This document shows, in pieces, positions 1,830 to 41,375 of a stretch of DNA of 44,948 nt. A program made the translations under genes and the position numbers. The notes below the pieces were generated by a model. The model did no database searches. It saw only the letters and a list, made by a program, of their open reading frames with translations, and had not been told where the DNA came from. Position 1 is the first letter of the stretch; every line of letters starts with the position of its first letter. The stretch lies in IMG/VR virus record IMGVR_UViG_3300023199_000025, positions 1-44,948 of that record. One strand, 5' to 3'. This DNA comes from a virus.

Positions 1830-4800
1830 TGCTGAGTTCTCTCTCGTTGACGAAGTAATGCTCTTTTCTTGTCCTCAAACTGAGTTTGCAAGTCTTCGTC
1901 GTGGCCAAACATGTATTCCTTAGCTATTTTAGTCGCATCAATTAGCCTTTCAGCAACTTGATTCCTTTTATCTATGTCTGCAGCTTGTTGGTATGCAGAC
2001 GAATTCATCATTTCCATCATAATTTCCTTTAAGGATGCTCCACCCTCTACTCCTTTTCCTCTTAATAGCTGAAACTGAGCCCTTTGTTTAGAGCTCAACT
2101 CCAACTTAATCTCAACACCCAGGCCTGTAGCTGGGGCTGTAATCTCTCTAGGAGGCTCGTTGGGTATGCTTAGATTATAGTCATCTATTAACCTTACTAT
2201 TTCCTTGTCCACCCAGTCTGGTTCTTTTGTTTTTGTCCTAATAGAAGATATAATGTCAGGACCTAAGCCTTCTGGGTATAGCTGAATGTCTCCCCATAGT
2301 GTATAGTTATGAGGCAAAGAAGTACTACCTTCAACTCCCAAAGGAGCTAAATTAGGGATTCTTCTTTGTATCTGCTCTAAGTAAGTGCTAGCCATTCTCA
2401 TATTTTTGTCAAAATGTTCCCTATTGATTTGAGCAACAAACTGTGGAACGACCATATTAGCAGAAATTTGCTGAAACTTTTGTAAAGCATAATCTGGATT
2501 TCCTGTAGAAACCCCATCCACTATGTCCAGCATACCTCCTATCGCTTCTATCATATACGTATCTCCCATTGTATTGATAAAAGCTCCCGTTACATTAGTT
2601 ACTAAATCCGAATAATAAGGATTTTCTTCTCCTGTTACAGGGTCTATAGCTTTAGTGTTGTGCATAGCTTCTTTAGTGTTGACTAATAAGCCTAGAATAG
2701 AACGTAAAGGCTCTATTTTTTCGTAGCTATGCCATTCGTCCCCTATCTTTATAGAGTATGCAGGAATACCGTTTTGTATTTTAAACCTGCCTTCTGCAGT
2801 AGAAGGGTCTATTCTTCCTGTTATTCTATCATCTAACATAGACATAGCAGTAAAAGGAACCATAGTACCCATTGCTATTTTAGCTCTAACAGTATCTGCT
2901 TCTGGACCTCCTTTAGTTAGAGCAGGTATTAGGTCTTTAAATATGTTACCCCAGATTCCGTTTCTAGCTCCTTGCTTAACAATGTTAGTAGGAGTCCTAA
3001 AAAACGGTATAGAAAATTTAGTTGCATAGTTGCTAGATATAGCTTTATTGAATGCTGTACCTGTTTTTCCTAAATTTTTAGTAAATGTATAGTGTTCAGC
3101 AACATCTACTGATTGATCCACCATACTTTTTAGTGGGTTGTTTTTTAATGTATTAAAAACCCTCAATTTGTCTTGAGCTGTTCCTTGTGTAGTTGCTGCT
3201 TTTCTTGCCGCCTGTGCAGCAGTTTCCATTCTGTAGTGGACAATTTTAAATGCTATATCTTCCTCTACTAGGGCAGCCCCTGGTATCCTTATAAATTTAC
3301 CTAAATAGTCTACGAGCGGGGCCATAGGACCGTTAATTTCCATATTTTCTGAGGTTATAGCTTTTCTGTATCGATATCCCTCTATCTCACTTTGACCCCT
3401 CATATCTGTAGGGATATTTAACTCTTCCCATGACTTACCTAGTCTTGTACTTCTCGCAGCATGCCTAAATGCATCTGAAATACCATGGGCCATACCAGTT
3501 AATCTTGCAGTAGTTTCTGCCCCTTTAATTGAAGCTTCCCTAAAGTCTAGCCTAGCTGCAGCAGACATTCCTTCTACAAAAGACTGTGTAGGAGCCCATG
3601 CTAAGTTTAATGCATTGGAAGAAATATTAACAGCATGAGTAACTGGGCCGGACAGAATAGCATTAGTAAAAACTTCAAATAGACTAGCTAATAATTTACT
3701 ATCCTTTACATTAGATACTATCTTATGGGCTTCAGAAGGAGTAGTAGTAGACAGCATTTCTTTAAGCACTTTTCGTGCTTTGCTATCCATCTTACCAAAA
3801 GTAGCTAACTGATCTATTTGCTTATTAATAGAAGCAAGATCACCTTCAGCAGAAATGTTAAAGGATTGTAATAACCGACCAGCTTGGCCTTTAACTCCTA
3901 AAACTTTTTCATGAATAGCTAGGTGAACTGCAAGAGCTTTGTTAAACGCTATATTATCCACATTTGTTGCATTAGCTCCATTAGCTCTTGTGGCTAACCT
4001 TACTAAGTTTTGCCCAGATGCTAATAAAGTCTGACGAAGTGCATATGCGTCTTCTGCAGAAAAGTGGTGTACTTTTTTGCCTAAAAGATCGGATAGTTGC
4101 TGGTCTTGGGCAAGCTCTATAGTCTCTTCGTTTGTCTGGTGCCCTACTGCAGCACGGAACCTTTCTTTATATACATCAGTAACTTCCTGTAAGAACGCAG
4201 TAACATCTTCATCACTAGTAAGTTTAGCATAATTTAGATGTATATTTGCAGACAAAGTGTCTGAGCTTATAGACTGCCTTGTTGTTTCTAAAGAGGTCTC
4301 TAACTCGTCTAGCACTTCAAAAGCAGGTCTTGTAGTATCTCCTAGTTTTTCAGTTATAGTTCCCTGAATTTCTTCTAAGCCTTCTCGTTCTGCTCTTTCT
4401 GCCTCTCGAATAACATTTATATCTTCTCCTATAAGACGGTTAAATTCCGTAATTTCTTCAGGAGAAGCTGTACCTTCGTCTATTTTCTGGGCTATAGTTC
4501 CAATCTCTCCCATAGATTTAGGATCTATGTTAGCAGATCCGCCTCCTGCTAATAGCTCAGCAAGGCCTTCTTGTACTATTCCTTTAAAGGTTTGTGCTCC
4601 TGATTCTGCAATTTCAGCAGATCTAGCTACTAATAAACCTTTTTGTATAACCTTAGCAAAAGGCAGGCCTAATACTATAGTAGGGTCTGAAACTAGTTCT
4701 ATAGTAGAGGCAGAAAGATCCTTTACGTATTTAGGAGCTCCAGGCATTATTCTTTCTACAAGAGCTCTAGAATGCTCAGGGCTTGTCTCTTGCTCAGGAT

Positions 4801-5344
4801 CTAAGCCAGGTAAAGCTCTTCGTTTCATTTCCTGAAGCATAGTAGAAAAGTCTTCACCTATCCTAGTGCTAAAATCTTCCGCCTGAGACGGGTTAGCTAA
4901 AGGAGCTATACCAGATCCAAACACAGTAAGAGGACTAAGTAAATTTCCTGTCCCTTCTACAAAATCCCCTATAATTCCTCCAGGATTTGTATTCTCTTCG
5001 TCTTTTTTAACTGCCTCTATTCCATGCTCATTTAAAGTTAAAGGCTCATTTACATAGTCTGGTTCATCTATTTGCCGTATAGACTCGTCTATTTGGTCGG
5101 GACTTAGTTGGCTTTCTTCTGTGCTTTCTACTCTGTTGTCTTCATTGCCTTCTCCACTTACATTGCCTACGGATCCGGCAGACTCTGACGGCATCCCTTG
5201 CAATTGAGACTCAAGGTTGTTAATAATCTCAAGCCTTTTATCCAAAGACTCTTCATTGTTGTTAATCTTGTCTACAATTGCTCTATGCTCAGTGTAAGCA
5301 TCAAACTGAGTATTAGAAGCAGAGGTTAAAGGAGTTTCTCTCAT
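1826..5344 (-). CDS. Large internal virion protein (ejectosome candidate)
   Basis: 1172 residues. Between nozzle and fibre in T7-like order, this place is held by internal virion proteins that leave the capsid at infection and form a channel across the envelope. The first 120 residues are acidic and low-complexity. The middle is long and helical, with a stretch containing LSGPVTHAVNISSNAL, a pattern I associate with the large internal proteins of non-T7 podoviruses. I see no lytic transglycosylase motif such as that of T7 gp16, so peptidoglycan cutting at entry may come from elsewhere. It overlaps both neighbours by 4 bp. The assignment rests on size, composition and position. Confidence 0.7.
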   Translation of the reverse strand: MRETPLTSASNTQFDAYTEHRAIVDKINNNEESLDKRLEIINNLESQLQGMPSESAGSVGNVSGEGNEDNRVESTEESQLSPDQIDESIRQIDEPDYVNEPLTLNEHGIEAVKKDEENTNPGGIIGDFVEGTGNLLSPLTVFGSGIAPLANPSQAEDFSTRIGEDFSTMLQEMKRRALPGLDPEQETSPEHSRALVERIMPGAPKYVKDLSASTIELVSDPTIVLGLPFAKVIQKGLLVARSAEIAESGAQTFKGIVQEGLAELLAGGGSANIDPKSMGEIGTIAQKIDEGTASPEEITEFNRLIGEDINVIREAERAEREGLEEIQGTITEKLGDTTRPAFEVLDELETSLETTRQSISSDTLSANIHLNYAKLTSDEDVTAFLQEVTDVYKERFRAAVGHQTNEETIELAQDQQLSDLLGKKVHHFSAEDAYALRQTLLASGQNLVRLATRANGANATNVDNIAFNKALAVHLAIHEKVLGVKGQAGRLLQSFNISAEGDLASINKQIDQLATFGKMDSKARKVLKEMLSTTTPSEAHKIVSNVKDSKLLASLFEVFTNAILSGPVTHAVNISSNALNLAWAPTQSFVEGMSAAARLDFREASIKGAETTARLTGMAHGISDAFRHAARSTRLGKSWEELNIPTDMRGQSEIEGYRYRKAITSENMEINGPMAPLVDYLGKFIRIPGAALVEEDIAFKIVHYRMETAAQAARKAATTQGTAQDKLRVFNTLKNNPLKSMVDQSVDVAEHYTFTKNLGKTGTAFNKAISSNYATKFSIPFFRTPTNIVKQGARNGIWGNIFKDLIPALTKGGPEADTVRAKIAMGTMVPFTAMSMLDDRITGRIDPSTAEGRFKIQNGIPAYSIKIGDEWHSYEKIEPLRSILGLLVNTKEAMHNTKAIDPVTGEENPYYSDLVTNVTGAFINTMGDTYMIEAIGGMLDIVDGVSTGNPDYALQKFQQISANMVVPQFVAQINREHFDKNMRMASTYLEQIQRRIPNLAPLGVEGSTSLPHNYTLWGDIQLYPEGLGPDIISSIRTKTKEPDWVDKEIVRLIDDYNLSIPNEPPREITAPATGLGVEIKLELSSKQRAQFQLLRGKGVEGGASLKEIMMEMMNSSAYQQAADIDKRNQVAERLIDATKIAKEYMFGHDEDLQTQFEDKKRALLRQRERTQQ

Positions 5345-7080
5345 TTTCCGAATAGCTCCTTAGATTGGTTTTGTCTTTTCAAAATTTCCTCTATATCTTT
5401 AGCGTACCCGTTGAGCTGGGCTTGGATTCTTTCCCATTCCTCTTCGGTATAGGAATCCCTTCGGTTCTTATAGTAAGAAATTGCATCCCGTAGCTGAGAG
5501 CCTGTCTGAGGCTGATGCCCATCCGGCAATGAACTTCTTAGTTTTAAGTTATTAATGGAAGAATTATACTTAGTAAATAAATCCTTCATTACTGTAGTAT
5601 AGTCTTCTCCGTTCAATAGTCTAGTTTTAAGCTCTTCTGTAGCTTTCCATCGTATAGTGCCTAGCTCCTCTGCCTGTAGTTTATGCCACGGCATGCCTTC
5701 AGTCCAAATCTTAATTAACTCTGAACCTCTTTTTTCTCTATCTCTATAGTCCGGATCGTTTAAGGATTCTTCGTAGTTTCTTAATATGGTTCTAGCTTCA
5801 CTAAATACTCCAGGAACCTTGTTGTAAAATCCTTTTAAGCTTTCTTTAATTATATTTCCTGCAGAGTCATACTGAATCTTAAAGTTTCTTTGAGCATTTT
5901 CTCTTATCTGGTCAGTAAGCTCTTGCATTTGAATAGGATCTGGAGCTTTTATAGTATCGTTGTAATACTCTGATTTGATGTTTCTTCCATATTCTGGACT
6001 TATACTGCCATTAACTACTAAATCTGAAACATAACTAGAACTAGGAATATTTCCTCTTATAATATCTGCTTCTAGCAAAGCTTCATTATGTTCTTGTATT
6101 TCTTTTTCTCTTCTCTCTGCTTGTTTTATAGCTAAAGTTTCTTCGGAGACGTAAGCAGCTCTTGCTTCTTCCTCATACCTCTTCAAGTCAGCAAGCAAAA
6201 CTCCCATATGCTTAGGAGCATTTGCTAACTCAGGTGCAGCCACTTGATTTACAAATTGTTGAGAAGCAGCTCTAGCTTGTTTTAAGGCAGTGGATTCTCT
6301 TGCTCCACTAGAGAGCGTTTGTCTATAAGTATTTAAATACTTAAGTTTTGCTACATCTACAAGAGCATTTCTCCAAGCAGAATCTGCATCTTCTAATGTA
6401 GAAAACGAAGAATAAAACTTAGACTTTAATGTCTGCCCTGTTACAGGATCTGGGACATTATAGGACTCAGGATTAGCAGCAAGATCGTACATAAGAACTT
6501 GTTGCTTTGCATACCTCTGGCTTTCTTGCACCTGCTGAAGTCCCTGTGCCCGGTGCGTAGAAGCTTTTCCTAAATACGTGCCTTTAGCACTTTGAAGTTT
6601 TAATAAAGCTTTGGCCTTTACACGAGGCTCTAAAGTAGACGTAATTTCTGAGAAAGCTTCTTGAGAAAACTTTTCAAAACCTGCGTACCCTGTTACTGCA
6701 GTATCTCCAGATGTGCTAGAGTACCCAGGTATGTGGTTTCCCTCTGAATCCTGTGTGCCATAGAATTTGTTTCTAAGAGCTTGCTCATACTGCAAATAAG
6801 CTTTGTTAGCTAAATATTCACTTTCTCTTTCCTGGTAATCCCATACAGAACTAACTACCCTGCCTGCGAACTCGTTGAGAGCAGGAGTAACTTGATCTTT
6901 GACTGTAGCAGGAATCTGCGCAGGAGTAAACTCTACATTAGCTGCATTAGGATTAACTTGGCCCAAAGCTAAGGACAATCTGTCCAAGCCTCCGCCTGCT
7001 GGAAGCAAAGAGGGACTTAAGCCTCCAGACCCTCTGGAAGCTTCTAGTTTTTTAGTGCTTAAAGTTCCACCATTTGCCAT
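5341..7080 (-). CDS. Internal virion protein (gp15-like position)
   Basis: 579 residues, mostly predicted helical and rich in Gln, Glu, Ala and Lys, with no signal peptide or membrane segment. It opens with a Gly/Ser/Pro-rich tail. Order and size match the middle of the three ejectosome proteins in T7-like podoviruses. Its end overlaps the start of the next gene by 4 bp, implying coupled translation and fixed stoichiometry. No catalytic motif is visible; function is inferred from context. Confidence 0.6.
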   Translation of the reverse strand: MANGGTLSTKKLEASRGSGGLSPSLLPAGGGLDRLSLALGQVNPNAANVEFTPAQIPATVKDQVTPALNEFAGRVVSSVWDYQERESEYLANKAYLQYEQALRNKFYGTQDSEGNHIPGYSSTSGDTAVTGYAGFEKFSQEAFSEITSTLEPRVKAKALLKLQSAKGTYLGKASTHRAQGLQQVQESQRYAKQQVLMYDLAANPESYNVPDPVTGQTLKSKFYSSFSTLEDADSAWRNALVDVAKLKYLNTYRQTLSSGARESTALKQARAASQQFVNQVAAPELANAPKHMGVLLADLKRYEEEARAAYVSEETLAIKQAERREKEIQEHNEALLEADIIRGNIPSSSYVSDLVVNGSISPEYGRNIKSEYYNDTIKAPDPIQMQELTDQIRENAQRNFKIQYDSAGNIIKESLKGFYNKVPGVFSEARTILRNYEESLNDPDYRDREKRGSELIKIWTEGMPWHKLQAEELGTIRWKATEELKTRLLNGEDYTTVMKDLFTKYNSSINNLKLRSSLPDGHQPQTGSQLRDAISYYKNRRDSYTEEEWERIQAQLNGYAKDIEEILKRQNQSKELFGK

Positions 7081-25638: not shown

Positions 25639-25875
25639 ATGAAAAAAGCTAAGATTACCTATTTTTTGGTTTGTTTGTATGAGAAGGAAGCTAAAGAAAC
25701 AGTAGTAGGGTCCGCATATAGTGTGATGGAACTAGCTCCACTTATGGAGACTGTAGAAAAAGATAGCAGACAGGTAGTTTCTTCTCGAATAGTTAAAGGG
25801 GCTACATGTGCATCTGCCCCGTACAAAGAGTATAAAGAATCTAAGTTTGAGCCTAGGCAAATAGAGTTTGCATAA
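25639..25875 (+). CDS. Small accessory protein, unknown
   Basis: 78 residues behind TAGGAGATTAAC. The start (KKAKITYFLVCLYEKEAKETVVG) looks like a beta strand rather than a signal peptide. No family recognised. Its stop and the next ATG share a base. Confidence 0.6.
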   Translation: MKKAKITYFLVCLYEKEAKETVVGSAYSVMELAPLMETVEKDSRQVVSSRIVKGATCASAPYKEYKESKFEPRQIEFA

Positions 25876-26177
25876 TGAACTTACTTACCCATCTGTTTAA
25901 ACAAATAGCATGGTCTAAAAAGACCTTTGGCCCTCTTCGTTTGAAAGGAGTAATCCACCATGTGGAAAAGGAAGTAGAAGAAATTAAAAAAGACCCTAAT
26001 GACCTAGAAGAGTGGGTGGATCTTATCCTTCTAGGCTTTGACGGTGCTTGGAGATCTGGACATTCGGCCGAACAAATTGTGGATGGTATTAAATCTAAAT
26101 TTGAAAAAAACCAGAAACGGTCTTGGCCAGACTGGAGGGAAGTTGATACAGAGAAAGCAATAGAACATAACCGTTAA
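25875..26177 (+). CDS. DUF550-type dATP/dGTP pyrophosphohydrolase-like protein
   Basis: 100 residues. 'WSKKTFGP', 'GVIHHVEKEVEEIKKDPNDLEEWVDLILLGFDGA', 'RSWPDWREVDTEKAIEH' follow the DUF550 pattern closely. The EExxD-like helices form a MazG-type Mg-binding site. Family members hydrolyse dNTPs (dATP/dGTP) to dNMP and PPi; the MazZ enzyme of diaminopurine phages belongs to this broad group. Here it may trim the host dNTP pool alongside the cassette at 37.9-40 kb. No PurZ-like gene is present. Confidence 0.8.
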   Translation: MNLLTHLFKQIAWSKKTFGPLRLKGVIHHVEKEVEEIKKDPNDLEEWVDLILLGFDGAWRSGHSAEQIVDGIKSKFEKNQKRSWPDWREVDTEKAIEHNR

Positions 26178-26183
26178 TTGATT

Positions 26184-26268
26184 GCCGAGGTGGCGGAACT
26201 GGTAGACGCACTGGACTTAAAATCCAGCGGGTATTCCCGTACGGGTTCGACTCCCGTCCTCGGCACCA
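26184..26268 (+). tRNA. tRNA-Leu (anticodon UAA)
   Basis: 85 nt with the 3' CCA encoded. Acceptor GCCGAGG pairs with CCTCGGC, the D arm contains AACTGGTAGACG, the anticodon stem CTGGA/TCCAG encloses CTTAAAA (anticodon TAA), a long class II variable arm follows, and the T arm is CGGGTTCGACTCCCG. It reads UUA, frequent in this AT-rich genome. Located between DUF550 and a small gene in the same direction. Confidence 0.95.
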
Positions 26269-37857: not shown

Positions 37858-38295
37858 ATGCTAGTTTACATAGCAGGCGGATGGTTTACAGACGAACAAA
37901 AAGAAGCAATCAGCGAAATTGAAGACGCACTTAGCATGAACGGAGTAGAGTACTTAAGCCCTAAAGACGAGATTGTATGGAAACCAGGAATGAATCCTAA
38001 GGATATTTTAGAAGCTAATGTAAAAGAAATGGGGCTAGCAGATGTGATCATTGCATCCACAGCGGGTAAAGATATGGGGACGTTGTTTGAGTGTGGCTAT
38101 GCCTATGCTAAGCAAATTCCTTTAGTATATTATTTTAAGCCCCACGCAAAAGATGCTAAGTTTAATGTAATGCTAGCATCCACGGCTGTGGCAGTTTTAA
38201 CAGACTGGGATCAGTTATGGTCTTATGCAGAAATGTTGCATAGTGAGATAATTATGCCAGAGGTTTCTTTAGGCTGGGAAGGAGATATGGAATGA
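37858..38295 (+). CDS. Nucleoside 2-deoxyribosyltransferase-like
   Basis: 145 residues. MLVYIAGGWF opening, 'ADVIIASTAGKDMGTLFECGYAYA' (candidate nucleophile Glu78) and 'KFNVMLASTA' are the family's three landmarks. Enzymes of this type swap bases on deoxyribonucleosides or strip bases from dNMPs. The first gene of the cassette, with GGAGAATATT upstream and a Fur-like site and palindromes in its promoter. It overlaps the HD gene by 4 bp. Substrate cannot be read from sequence. Confidence 0.8.
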   Translation: MLVYIAGGWFTDEQKEAISEIEDALSMNGVEYLSPKDEIVWKPGMNPKDILEANVKEMGLADVIIASTAGKDMGTLFECGYAYAKQIPLVYYFKPHAKDAKFNVMLASTAVAVLTDWDQLWSYAEMLHSEIIMPEVSLGWEGDME

Positions 38296-38822
38296 CTGAA
38301 ATAAAAGAACCAATGCCAGACTTTTCAGATAAGTTTTACCATGACATTTATGTTTTAGCAGAGATTAAAAGGTATAGCACAGACTTTACAATCCGGCCCG
38401 AAAGTGTGGCAGAACATAGTTTTTTCGTTGCTGCTATTCTATTTAAGCTGCACGAAGAATACGAGTTTGATCTAGGAAAAGCTATGATAATGGCTATCTC
38501 GCATGATATGCCAGAAATAGAGCTTAACGATGTTCCTAGAAAACTTAAGAGAAAATACCCAGCTATATCTGAGGCTTTTAAAGAAGCTGAAGAAGATGCT
38601 ATAAAAGAAATGCCAACAGGTGTAAAGGAAGCAGTAGAGTTATACAGAAAAAACAACTGTATAGAAACTAGAATGGTCCACTTTGCTGATGCTATTCAAT
38701 GCTACCAGTACGCATCAGTGGAAGTAAAGCTAGGAAATACAGGATACTTTGGCATTGTTTTATCCGAGTCCGTAGAACGCATTTCCACTTTTATTGGAGA
38801 CCTGAAGTATGCTAAACGATAA
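38292..38822 (+). CDS. HD-domain deoxynucleotide phosphohydrolase, YfbR/DatZ-like
   Basis: 176 residues. 'ESVAEHSFFVA' (His42), 'SHDMPEIELNDVP' (His71-Asp72) and 'FADAIQ' (Asp133) give the H...HD...D metal set with the 'EH(S/W)' preceding it, as in YfbR 5'-deoxynucleotidases and phage dATPases (DatZ). It removes phosphate(s) from dNMP or dNTP. Coupled to the genes before and after it (4 and 14 bp overlaps). Confidence 0.8.
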   Translation: MTEIKEPMPDFSDKFYHDIYVLAEIKRYSTDFTIRPESVAEHSFFVAAILFKLHEEYEFDLGKAMIMAISHDMPEIELNDVPRKLKRKYPAISEAFKEAEEDAIKEMPTGVKEAVELYRKNNCIETRMVHFADAIQCYQYASVEVKLGNTGYFGIVLSESVERISTFIGDLKYAKR

Positions 38823-39090
38823 CGATGTAGGAAAAACTTTAAAAGAAAGGGGTTCTGTATATGGAGAGTACAAATGGCAGAACCAAACTAGAGCAGACAT
38901 GCTACAAATGTTTTATGACAGGTATTTGCATGAGCATGGTGAGCTGCCTTCTCCAGAAGACATTACTAGGGTATACGATATAATAAATAAGTTATCTCGT
39001 TTGCTAGTTAGTCCTAAGCATTTAGACACTTGGAAAGACATAGCTGGGTATGCTATGTTAGCTTACAACGATATTAACGAGGATAAATAA
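38809..39090 (+). CDS. DUF6378-like small MazG-type protein
   Basis: 93 residues. 'KTLKERGSVYGEYKWQNQTRAD' and 'VYDIINKLSRLLVSPKHLDTWKDIAGYAML' match the DUF6378 pattern ('ERG--YG', 'KI-R-L-G----D-W-DIAGYA'). These are all-helical, MazG-like proteins found beside nucleotide genes; activity unproven. Its stop and the ThyX start share one base. Confidence 0.7.
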   Translation: MLNDNDVGKTLKERGSVYGEYKWQNQTRADMLQMFYDRYLHEHGELPSPEDITRVYDIINKLSRLLVSPKHLDTWKDIAGYAMLAYNDINEDK

Positions 39091-40019
39091 TGCCAATTAA
39101 CAATGATTTGCCAGAGAAAACTTTTCCCATGAAATTTCGCTGGAGGGAAAAACCTACTACAGAATATAAGCAGTCTTTAGAGAATCTTTCTGTATCCTGC
39201 TTGTCCCACCCCAGCAGGGGGCAGATACTAAGCCATGTAGCAACTTTCTCTTTAGCTACATGGGAGGATAGACCTAATTTTGGGTATACTACTGAAGAAC
39301 ACGAAAAAGCATTAAAAGGTATTTTACAGGGAAGCGTATTGCCTAACTTTATGGAAACCCTTAAGTTTACCTTTCTTATATCCAACATAGATTTAGTGGA
39401 TGTAACCCACCTGATTAGGCATAGAACATTTACTTTTTCTGCACATTGCACAGGGGACAGAGATCAGCGGCACGATGCAGCACTGGTAAAACCATCTATA
39501 CAAGAGCATGGAGAATTTTACGCTAGATACCAAGAGCTTATGGAAGAAGCTAAAGCTTTGTATGCAGATATGGTGGATTCTAAAGAAATTAGTTTTCTGG
39601 ATGCTCGTACAGTACTTCCACGATGTACAGAAAACCATTACTATGTAAGTGCTTCTCTTAAAGACCTGATACCATTTTTTAAGCAAAGGCTAGATAAGCA
39701 GATACAACCAGAAACAGATAATCTAATAGCTATTAAAATGCTACTTCATGTAGCTAGAGTTATTCCTGAAATAGGATATATAATTGACCTAGATGAGCCT
39801 GACTGGTTTTTTATTAAAACAGCACAACAAGACCATAGCTCTAATTTGTATTACCCAGAGGAGAAAAACGATACCTTTGATTATAACGAACAGTGGTTTG
39901 TATACAAAAGGAAAAGAAAAGATATGCTAGGAGGATATGTATTCCATGAAATATGGTCTAGACTAGCTTTTATCTATAAAGATATAGTTAACACTTTTAA
40001 GGAAAAAACAAATGCTTGA
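39090..40019 (+). CDS. Divergent ThyX-like flavin-dependent thymidylate synthase
   Basis: 309 residues. RHR at 110-112 followed by SAHC and GDRDQR aligns with the ThyX signature RHR-x7-S-x-R, and 'LDARTVLPRCTENHYYVSASLKDLIPFFKQR' with its second half. At the signature, canonical Asn-Glu-x-Ser-x-Arg positions read Ser-Ala-His-Cys-Thr-Gly, so several dUMP-binding residues differ. It could be a true dTMP synthase with an altered site or a pyrimidine-modifying relative, such as a hydroxymethylase. Longer than most ThyX. Overlaps the next mini-gene by 8 bp. Confidence 0.75.
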   Translation: MPINNDLPEKTFPMKFRWREKPTTEYKQSLENLSVSCLSHPSRGQILSHVATFSLATWEDRPNFGYTTEEHEKALKGILQGSVLPNFMETLKFTFLISNIDLVDVTHLIRHRTFTFSAHCTGDRDQRHDAALVKPSIQEHGEFYARYQELMEEAKALYADMVDSKEISFLDARTVLPRCTENHYYVSASLKDLIPFFKQRLDKQIQPETDNLIAIKMLLHVARVIPEIGYIIDLDEPDWFFIKTAQQDHSSNLYYPEEKNDTFDYNEQWFVYKRKRKDMLGGYVFHEIWSRLAFIYKDIVNTFKEKTNA

Positions 40020-40164
40020 TAATTTTTGGTTTTGGTTGCTTATTTCAGGTATTATTATGGTTCAGCTATATCTTTTGTTTAAGCTTGCGAGCATATCCCA
40101 CACTAGTGATAGTCTTTTTAGGTCTTTGTTTGATAAGGTTAAAAAACTGGAGAATAAAGAATGA
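40012..40164 (+). CDS. Mini membrane protein between thyX-like and ligase genes
   Basis: 50 residues, missed by length cutoffs. AAGGAAAAAACAA precedes the ATG, it overlaps thyX by 8 bp and the ligase start by 4 bp (ATGA), typical for this operon. One membrane span (FWFWLLISGIIMVQLYLLF) then a charged helix. The overlapping frame at 40016-40198 lacks such support. Role unknown. Confidence 0.6.
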   Translation: MLDNFWFWLLISGIIMVQLYLLFKLASISHTSDSLFRSLFDKVKKLENKE

Positions 40165-41375
40165 GTATTTCTATAGTCCACGGACTGAGAAAAGCTAGAG
40201 GAACTAACAAAAAGCTTCAAATACTAAAAAAGCATAAAGACAACGATCAATGGAAGCGCATACTAGAAGCTATGTATGATACTGGAGTTAACTACCATGT
40301 GTCCTCTCCTTCTGAAAACACATTCTTAGAAGACCACGAGGTAGATTACGATGATATGCTAGAAGCTTTGAGTACTTTAGCAAGTAGAAAATATACTGGA
40401 AATAAAGCTAGAGACTTTGCAGTTGCATGCTCAGAACAGTATGGAGAAATGTTTAGGCTAGTCCTTGGAGGAAGCCTTAAAGCAGGAGTATCCACTACAA
40501 CTATCAACAAAGCATACCCTGAACTTATTCCTACATATCCACTTATGTTGGCTAAAGATGTAGAAATAAAAGAGTACCCTATATGGGGCTCCACTAAGTT
40601 TGATGGAGTTCGTTTAATAGCTAAAAACTATGGAGATAAAGTAGTTATAATAACTAGACAAGGAAAACATTTTCCACTGGAAGAACTAGAAAAAGAAATA
40701 GCTAAACTCCATCCAGGGGTGTATGATGGAGAACTAGTGGTTGGAGACGGGATGCAGGCAGGGAGAACTAAAATAACAGGCTATGTTAACAAGGTCCTTT
40801 TAGGTAAAGCTAAAACATTGCCTGAATATACTTTTTGTATTTTTGACTATATTCCAATACAAGATTGGGAAAATCAAAAGTCTACATTTGTATACGGAAC
40901 AAGGTACCAGACTCTAGTGGAACAGTTTCCTAAGTATAAACAAGGTAATCTTCGTATAGTACAGCAAGAGTGCTTAAGGAACAACTCAGAAGTTGAGCAC
41001 TTTTTTAACAACAGGCTAGTATTTGGATTTGAAGGAATTATATTACGGTATAAAGCTAGTCATTACCAGTGGAAAAGAACTCCTGACTTAATTAAAAAGA
41101 AAGCTATCAAAGATTGTAAACTTACCTGTGTAGGAACTAATGAAGGTACAGGAAAATACGAAGGCTTAATAGGTGCTCTTGTATGTGTGGGAAGAGTGGA
41201 GGGAAAGCCAGTAAGAGTTAAGATAGGATCTGGCCTTACTGATACAGATAGGCAAGAACCAGAAGCTCATTTTATAGGAAACACTATTGACATAGAGTAT
41301 AACGATGTAGTGACTCAAGAGAAAAGCGATACATACAGCCTTTTTCTGCCTAGGTTTAAAAGAGTTCTTAAATGA
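40161..41375 (+). CDS. ATP-dependent DNA ligase
   Basis: 404 residues. Motif I STKFDGVRLI gives the adenylated Lys near residue 146; then TRQGKHF (motif Ia region), YDGELVV (motif III), EGIILRY (motif IV) and KKKAIKDCKL (motif V). An N-terminal helical ~110 residues and C-terminal OB-fold-like end (VRVKIGSGLTDTDRQE) complete the T7/bacterial LigD-like layout. Seals Okazaki and recombination nicks. Confidence 0.92.
   Translation: MSISIVHGLRKARGTNKKLQILKKHKDNDQWKRILEAMYDTGVNYHVSSPSENTFLEDHEVDYDDMLEALSTLASRKYTGNKARDFAVACSEQYGEMFRLVLGGSLKAGVSTTTINKAYPELIPTYPLMLAKDVEIKEYPIWGSTKFDGVRLIAKNYGDKVVIITRQGKHFPLEELEKEIAKLHPGVYDGELVVGDGMQAGRTKITGYVNKVLLGKAKTLPEYTFCIFDYIPIQDWENQKSTFVYGTRYQTLVEQFPKYKQGNLRIVQQECLRNNSEVEHFFNNRLVFGFEGIILRYKASHYQWKRTPDLIKKKAIKDCKLTCVGTNEGTGKYEGLIGALVCVGRVEGKPVRVKIGSGLTDTDRQEPEAHFIGNTIDIEYNDVVTQEKSDTYSLFLPRFKRVLK

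Follow-up and report, generated by a model that had tools for sequence, protein, structure and literature searches.

A divergent viral ThyX subfamily in a nucleotide-enzyme cassette: a possible route to modified cytosine in phage DNA

A cassette of overlapping genes for nucleotide enzymes, found in an IMG/VR virus record of 44,948 bases that was analysed at its full length (the window), may form a pathway for a modified cytosine deoxynucleotide, in which a divergent ThyX-fold protein (ThyX*) would act on C5 of dCMP. We rate the chances of this proposal, which is based on comparison with ~70 other phages, as about even. A previous sequence-only reading had suspected that the ThyX relative might be something other than an ordinary thymidylate synthase, in a cassette concerned with modified nucleotides. 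This suspicion was supported by comparative evidence, although the overall reading was only partly supported.

Results

The gene content of the window is podovirus-like: the minus strand encodes tail and internal-virion proteins, a head-tail adaptor and the terminase, and the plus strand carries a replication block. The DNA polymerase of the window most resembles those of ~42-kb phages of Edwardsiella, Pseudoalteromonas and Vibrio. All four overlapping genes previously placed at 37858-40019 are present as open reading frames, with overlaps of 4, 14 and 1 nt (Table 1), and family profiles confirmed that they encode a nucleoside 2'-deoxyribosyltransferase-like (NDT) protein, an HD protein, a DUF6378 protein and a ThyX relative. 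The former DUF550 gene at 25875 likewise proved to match a dATP/dGTP pyrophosphohydrolase family; a tRNA-Leu (taa) gene adjoins it at 26184-26268.

Table 1. Positions of the cassette and associated features in the window
Feature	Position	Strand	Evidence
NDT-like protein, nucleoside 2'-deoxyribosyltransferase-like, 145 aa	37858..38295	+	PF05014 1.2e-15; alignment A7; solved NDT relatives
HD nucleotide phosphohydrolase, YfbR/OxsA type, 176 aa	38292..38822	+	PF12917 6.3e-21; OxsA 2.9e-8, YfbR 6e-3
DUF6378 small protein, 93 aa	38809..39090	+	PF19905 1.9e-6; alignment A6
ThyX*, divergent ThyX-fold protein, 309 aa, proposed dCMP C5-modifying enzyme	39090..40019	+	PF02511 (Thy1) 2e-20; AlphaFold2, Foldseek, tree
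ThyX* rewritten substrate-recognition peptide, residues 110-124, RHRTFTFSAHCTGDR (canonical RHRxxSxNxxSxRY)	39417..39461	+	Column counts
ThyX* Arg200 (T. maritima Arg174), pyrimidine-contacting, kept	39687..39689	+	Alignment columns; R174K mutant chain sets register
dATP/dGTP pyrophosphohydrolase-like protein (former DUF550), far from the cassette	25875..26177	+	PF04447 1.9e-26
Intergenic stretch, site of the dCMP deaminase (ThyX*-ligase interval) in L027-L030	40020..40160	.	Gene order; PF00383 in L027
ATP-dependent DNA ligase bounding the cassette, syntenic in relatives	40161..41375	+	PHROG 114 1.5e-86

The fold of ThyX* was evaluated by profile, structure prediction and phylogeny. The AlphaFold2 model of the window protein (pLDDT 91, pTM 0.90) returned members of the ThyX family in all of the 50 Foldseek PDB matches listed (M. 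tuberculosis ThyX, 2.4e-10), in agreement with the PF02511 match. A tblastn search of 50,697 phage records yielded Geobacillus phage GR1, whose ThyX* is UDY80709, as the sole full-length relative (44%). Queries with the window protein alone, GR1 or a small alignment recovered few or no relatives, and the family was opened by a search for the motif F[SA]A[QDH]C[TS]GD, which gave 195 IMG/VR matches, the best 80 of which were used for comparison, with GR1 as the only isolate. The same motif was found in four MAG contigs among 84,980 genomes; three of these, which may be phage sequences that were binned, show the NDT-HD-ThyX* order. The ThyX* proteins formed one group in a 78-sequence tree, with 100/100 support and a long stem. 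ThyX* appears, from sequence comparison, to be an undescribed, virus-restricted ThyX subfamily.

To locate the divergence, column counts were made over 70 ThyX* and 37 canonical ThyX proteins (T. maritima numbering). Ser88 is replaced by Cys, Arg90 by Gly and Tyr91 by Asp in 70/70 ThyX*, so that the canonical motif RHRxxSxNxxSxRY is broken at these residues throughout, whereas the same columns in canonical ThyX hold Ser in 37/37, Arg in 37/37, and Tyr in 35 with Phe in 2. In addition, His53 is changed to Leu in 69/70 and Gln75 to His in 70/70. Retained in all 70 are Glu58, Arg78, Arg80, Arg147, Arg174 and Gln180, and the fold, RHR, E58, R147, R174 and Q180 are accordingly common to ThyX* and canonical ThyX/FDTS (PF02511), including the UMP/dUMP methylase PolB. 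ThyX* otherwise differs from canonical ThyX in its longer N- and C-terminal parts and in its identity of only ~13-19% to solved ThyX, and both types co-exist in the same genomes.

Strict conservation and mutational data mark Ser88 and Tyr91 as critical residues of canonical ThyX, in which Arg174 deprotonates N3 of dUMP and so activates it (PMC8316439). In PolB, pyrimidine O4 is bonded by the counterpart of Arg90, and O2 by that of Arg174 (PMC5003785). Since O4 tells uracil from cytosine, a Gly in place of its donor, with an invariant Asp and Cys alongside, is what a switch to cytosine would be expected to produce. We therefore infer that the swaps point to a change of substrate from uracil to cytosine, in a register that may be one residue off. 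Of two possible alignments, one with a one-residue insertion (S88 to Thr/Ser121, R90 to Asp123) and one without gaps, the gapless one was preferred because canonical phage ThyX such as that of SPbetaL5 reads SFSAQSQRY against SFSAQCTGDR; Arg90 and Tyr91 are lost under either alignment. Asp210 was ruled out as the counterpart of T. maritima Arg174, as the R174K mutant chain places Arg174 at the conserved Arg200. The almost universal H53L change may mean that the folate/flavin cavity of ThyX* works differently, a point against the proposed pathway.

Whether ThyX* supplies dTMP was assessed from the genomes that carry it. A canonical ThyX is also present in 16 of 31 long ThyX* records (117-182 bits, vs. 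55-86 for ThyX*), and two further GR1-like records encode a full-length canonical ThyA that bears the Asn of uracil-type enzymes. At least 18 of the 31 thus have an ordinary ThyX or ThyA besides ThyX*, and dTMP synthesis is therefore probably not the role of ThyX*. The slot that canonical ThyX holds in the relatives of L090 is occupied in L090 itself by a canonical Asn-type ThyA. The window contains no second thymidylate synthase, no truncated ThyA or other PF00303 protein, no glycosyltransferase related to that of GR1 and no dCMP deaminase; its ThyX* could thus in principle still make dTMP, and the modified-cytosine pathway there rests on homology.

The truncated ThyA is carried by 25 of 31 ThyX* relatives. 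In the L009 and GR1 groups its gene directly follows that of ThyX*; in large phages the truncated ThyA is frequently fused to a thymidylate-kinase-like P-loop domain. The A4 set of these proteins keeps the invariant Arg, the Cys nucleophile, the Arg-Ser pair and the His, and has Asp at the Asn177 position, a residue that marks cytosine-type enzymes (PMC5175136; PMC8670742). The best PDB matches were T4 dCMP hydroxymethylase and the CMP hydroxymethylase MilA, with AfhB of phage HY126 (9iqc/9iqu) lower down. Profile comparisons of 98, 96 and 93% probability form a homology chain to a 151-aa protein of GR1, to which Foldseek adds a weak link with TS structures (best E 2e-3). The Cys, RS and His are absent from the truncated ThyA of the L117 lineage, indicating that the domain is not always catalytic. 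The human-gut phage L022 (Phage DP SC_2_H4_2017) encodes, at 2785-5352, a canonical ThyX beside divergent open reading frames, one of which (4612-5352) matches the truncated-ThyA profile and another (3655-4392) does so weakly.

The NDT protein shows the expected fold and catalytic Tyr, Asp, Glu and Asn/Met set, with Tyr4, Asp72, Glu78, Asn103 and Met105 conserved in the family alignment. By profile, NDT was detected in 32/32 ThyX* records as compared with 1/10 controls (phages with canonical ThyX or a ThyA-family enzyme), and the NDT-HD-ThyX order was found again in unrelated phages; together these results argue that the arrangement is not due to chance. NDT lies within 10 kb of ThyX* in 66/70 loci, and three of the four loci without it have only a short stretch of sequence on the flank expected to hold the gene. 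The L009 and L017 phages have NDT joined in one protein with a thymidylate-kinase-like P-loop domain. A second NDT lies outside the cassette in GR1 (OK896991, 8491-8973) and some relatives.

The HD protein has an intact H..HD..D motif and matches its family profile. It had been assigned to a YfbR/DatZ type: YfbR is, with OxsA, indeed among its nearest solved relatives, but a specifically DatZ-like identity was not borne out, despite one PHROG match labelled dATP triphosphohydrolase. The nucleotidase is an HD protein in 21 loci, a dUTPase_2-NT5C fusion in 36 and both in none, as expected of interchangeable parts, although phage kinship makes the loci non-independent and such counts overstate the number of events. 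NT5C enzymes classically prefer uracil and thymine dNMPs. The DUF6378 protein is common to the nearest relatives of the window (L027-L030) and L084; its description as MazG-like found no backing, with hhalign probabilities of 0.3-0.5% against MazG and dUTPase_2 profiles and no PDB profile match.

In these nearest relatives, the gene order of the window recurs with a dCMP deaminase inserted between ThyX* and the ligase, an arrangement that also fits a dUMP substrate. In most of the GR1 clade, the gene immediately preceding ThyX* encodes a nitroreductase-like flavoprotein (e.g., L002:14286-14885). Formamidopyrimidine-DNA-glycosylase-like proteins and an NAD-dependent sugar epimerase occur near ThyX* in 31/70 (e.g., L082:7193-8431) and 36/70 loci, respectively, and could serve DNA base or sugar modification.

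In GR1, the gene for a glycosyltransferase, UDY80704, sits between HD and ThyX* (PHROG alpha-glucosyltransferase, 6e-53). Its sole relatives among the 50,697 phages are gp313 of phage G and ~415 mostly T4-like records, namely the hmC alpha-glucosyltransferases (a-gt), with a T4 match of 1.2e-7; the kinship with T4 AGT is distant (~23% identity, E ~1e-5). The previous statement that no glycosyltransferase is seen thus holds for the window with respect to relatives of the GR1 protein, but not for GR1-type relatives, where one lies inside the cassette.

A Z-genome (2-aminoadenine) cassette was also considered and was rejected for the window, which has no PurZ (PF00709). Adenylosuccinate-synthetase-family proteins (PF00709) were found in 2/18 ThyX* relatives; these genes, possibly PurZ-like, lie at 135346-136356 of G021 (the L068 contig) and 47513-48373 of G014 (the L045 contig), G021 being also the lineage with the degenerate truncated ThyA.

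Discussion

In the pathway that we propose, ThyX* would combine the retained fold, FAD-side residues and pyrimidine-contacting arginines with Cys, Gly and Asp in place of the uracil-type recognition and catalysis residues, and would act at C5 of dCMP. The group added would most likely be hydroxymethyl, with hydroxyl and methyl as the other candidates. Two points favour hydroxymethylation: a methylene unit is what ThyX enzymes handle, and GR1 has a relative of the hmC glucosyltransferases. The product would then be phosphorylated and incorporated into DNA, while HD (the pyrophosphatase-nucleotidase fusion in other lineages) and NDT would clear the competing unmodified dCTP, dCMP and dC, with NDT transferring the freed deoxyribose to another base for recycling. 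The window phage is presumed, by homology, to use the same pathway as its relatives, and the substrate, product and step directions are likewise predictions. The broader evolutionary proposal, to which we give slightly less than even weight, is that a viral branch of ThyX switched from dUMP to dCMP. The switch would have opened a route to C5-hydroxylated or hydroxymethylated cytosine DNA that uses flavin and does not depend on ThyA; it would be present in at least 200 viral contigs, sometimes together with a truncated, folate-lid-less ThyA-kinase fusion.

It is improbable that ThyX* is instead a divergent but ordinary dUMP-to-dTMP synthase in a cassette that rebalances dNTP pools. Such a role would suit a PF02511 protein with its FAD and dUMP arginines retained, the lack of another thymidylate synthase in the window and the adjoining deaminase of the nearest relatives, which makes dUMP, but it conflicts with the absence, from all 70 ThyX*, of three residues used in catalysis or recognition and with the co-occurrence of canonical enzymes described above. 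The retained Arg174, the nearby deaminase in some relatives and the general preference of NT5C-type nucleotidases for dUMP and dTMP could also be read as thymine replacement, with ThyX* modifying dUMP, for example to hydroxymethyl-dUMP, and HD/NT5C and NDT purging dTTP and dTMP. We consider this improbable as well, given that about half of the long records encode a canonical ThyX or ThyA making the very dTMP to be purged, that the associated truncated ThyA domains are of the Asp177, cytosine type, and that the GR1 glycosyltransferase is related to hmC glucosyltransferases.

An unlikely account that retains cytosine as the target is that ThyX* is a folate-independent flavin hydroxylase yielding 5-hydroxy-dCMP, an AfhB-like effect achieved on another fold and possibly together with the truncated ThyA. 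The replacement of His53 in the folate/flavin cavity along with that of Tyr91 by Asp, the AfhB entries among the TS-family matches of the truncated ThyA and the nitroreductase-like flavoprotein of the GR1 clade are consistent with it; against it, the truncated ThyA is absent from the window, and its profile matches T4 dCMP hydroxymethylase better than AfhB.

The proposed modified-cytosine pathway shares with the T4 hmC pathway (gp42 dCMP hydroxymethylase, dCTPase, dNMP kinase, AGT/BGT) the logic of C5 modification of dCMP, purge, kinase and glucosylation, the last represented by the AGT relative in GR1 but by no such glucosyltransferase in the window. In contrast to T4, neither GR1 nor the window has a full-length ThyA-type dCMP hydroxymethylase; a ThyX-fold protein stands in its place, a fold different from the gp42 type with its Cys nucleophile and Asp at the Asn177 position, and NDT and HD/NT5C lie outside the T4 set. 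The modified-cytosine contigs of MetaGPA likewise combine an Asp177 cytosine-type TS fold with pyrophosphohydrolases and dCMP deaminase, but that family is ThyA (PF00303) and ThyX is never mentioned (PMC8670742), so the ThyX-derived dCMP hydroxymethylase from viral metagenomes that the sequence-only reading mentioned was not recovered there. Moreover, full-text searches of openly licensed literature returned nothing coupling ThyX to dCMP hydroxymethylase, hydroxymethylcytosine or dCMP modification. The dCMP hydroxylase AfhB (9iqu, 9iqc), known here from PDB titles alone, is a TS-fold, dCMP-binding and flavin-linked relative of the truncated ThyA and is unrelated to ThyX*. In mildiomycin biosynthesis, MilA and MilB pair a pyrimidine C5 hydroxymethylase with a hydrolase that releases 5hmC from hmCMP (PMC5175136), although this system acts on ribonucleotides in secondary metabolism and MilA is a ThyA-family enzyme.

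The automatic annotation of FAD-dependent thymidylate synthase is probably wrong for the ThyX* subfamily. As GR1 is a cultured isolate, the modified-cytosine proposal is directly testable. The phage enzymes for one-carbon C5 modification of dCMP that we found in the literature are all of ThyA fold; a ThyX-fold equivalent, if true, would represent a convergent solution with different flavin chemistry, would imply modified cytosine DNA in many uncultured phages and might provide a new tool enzyme.
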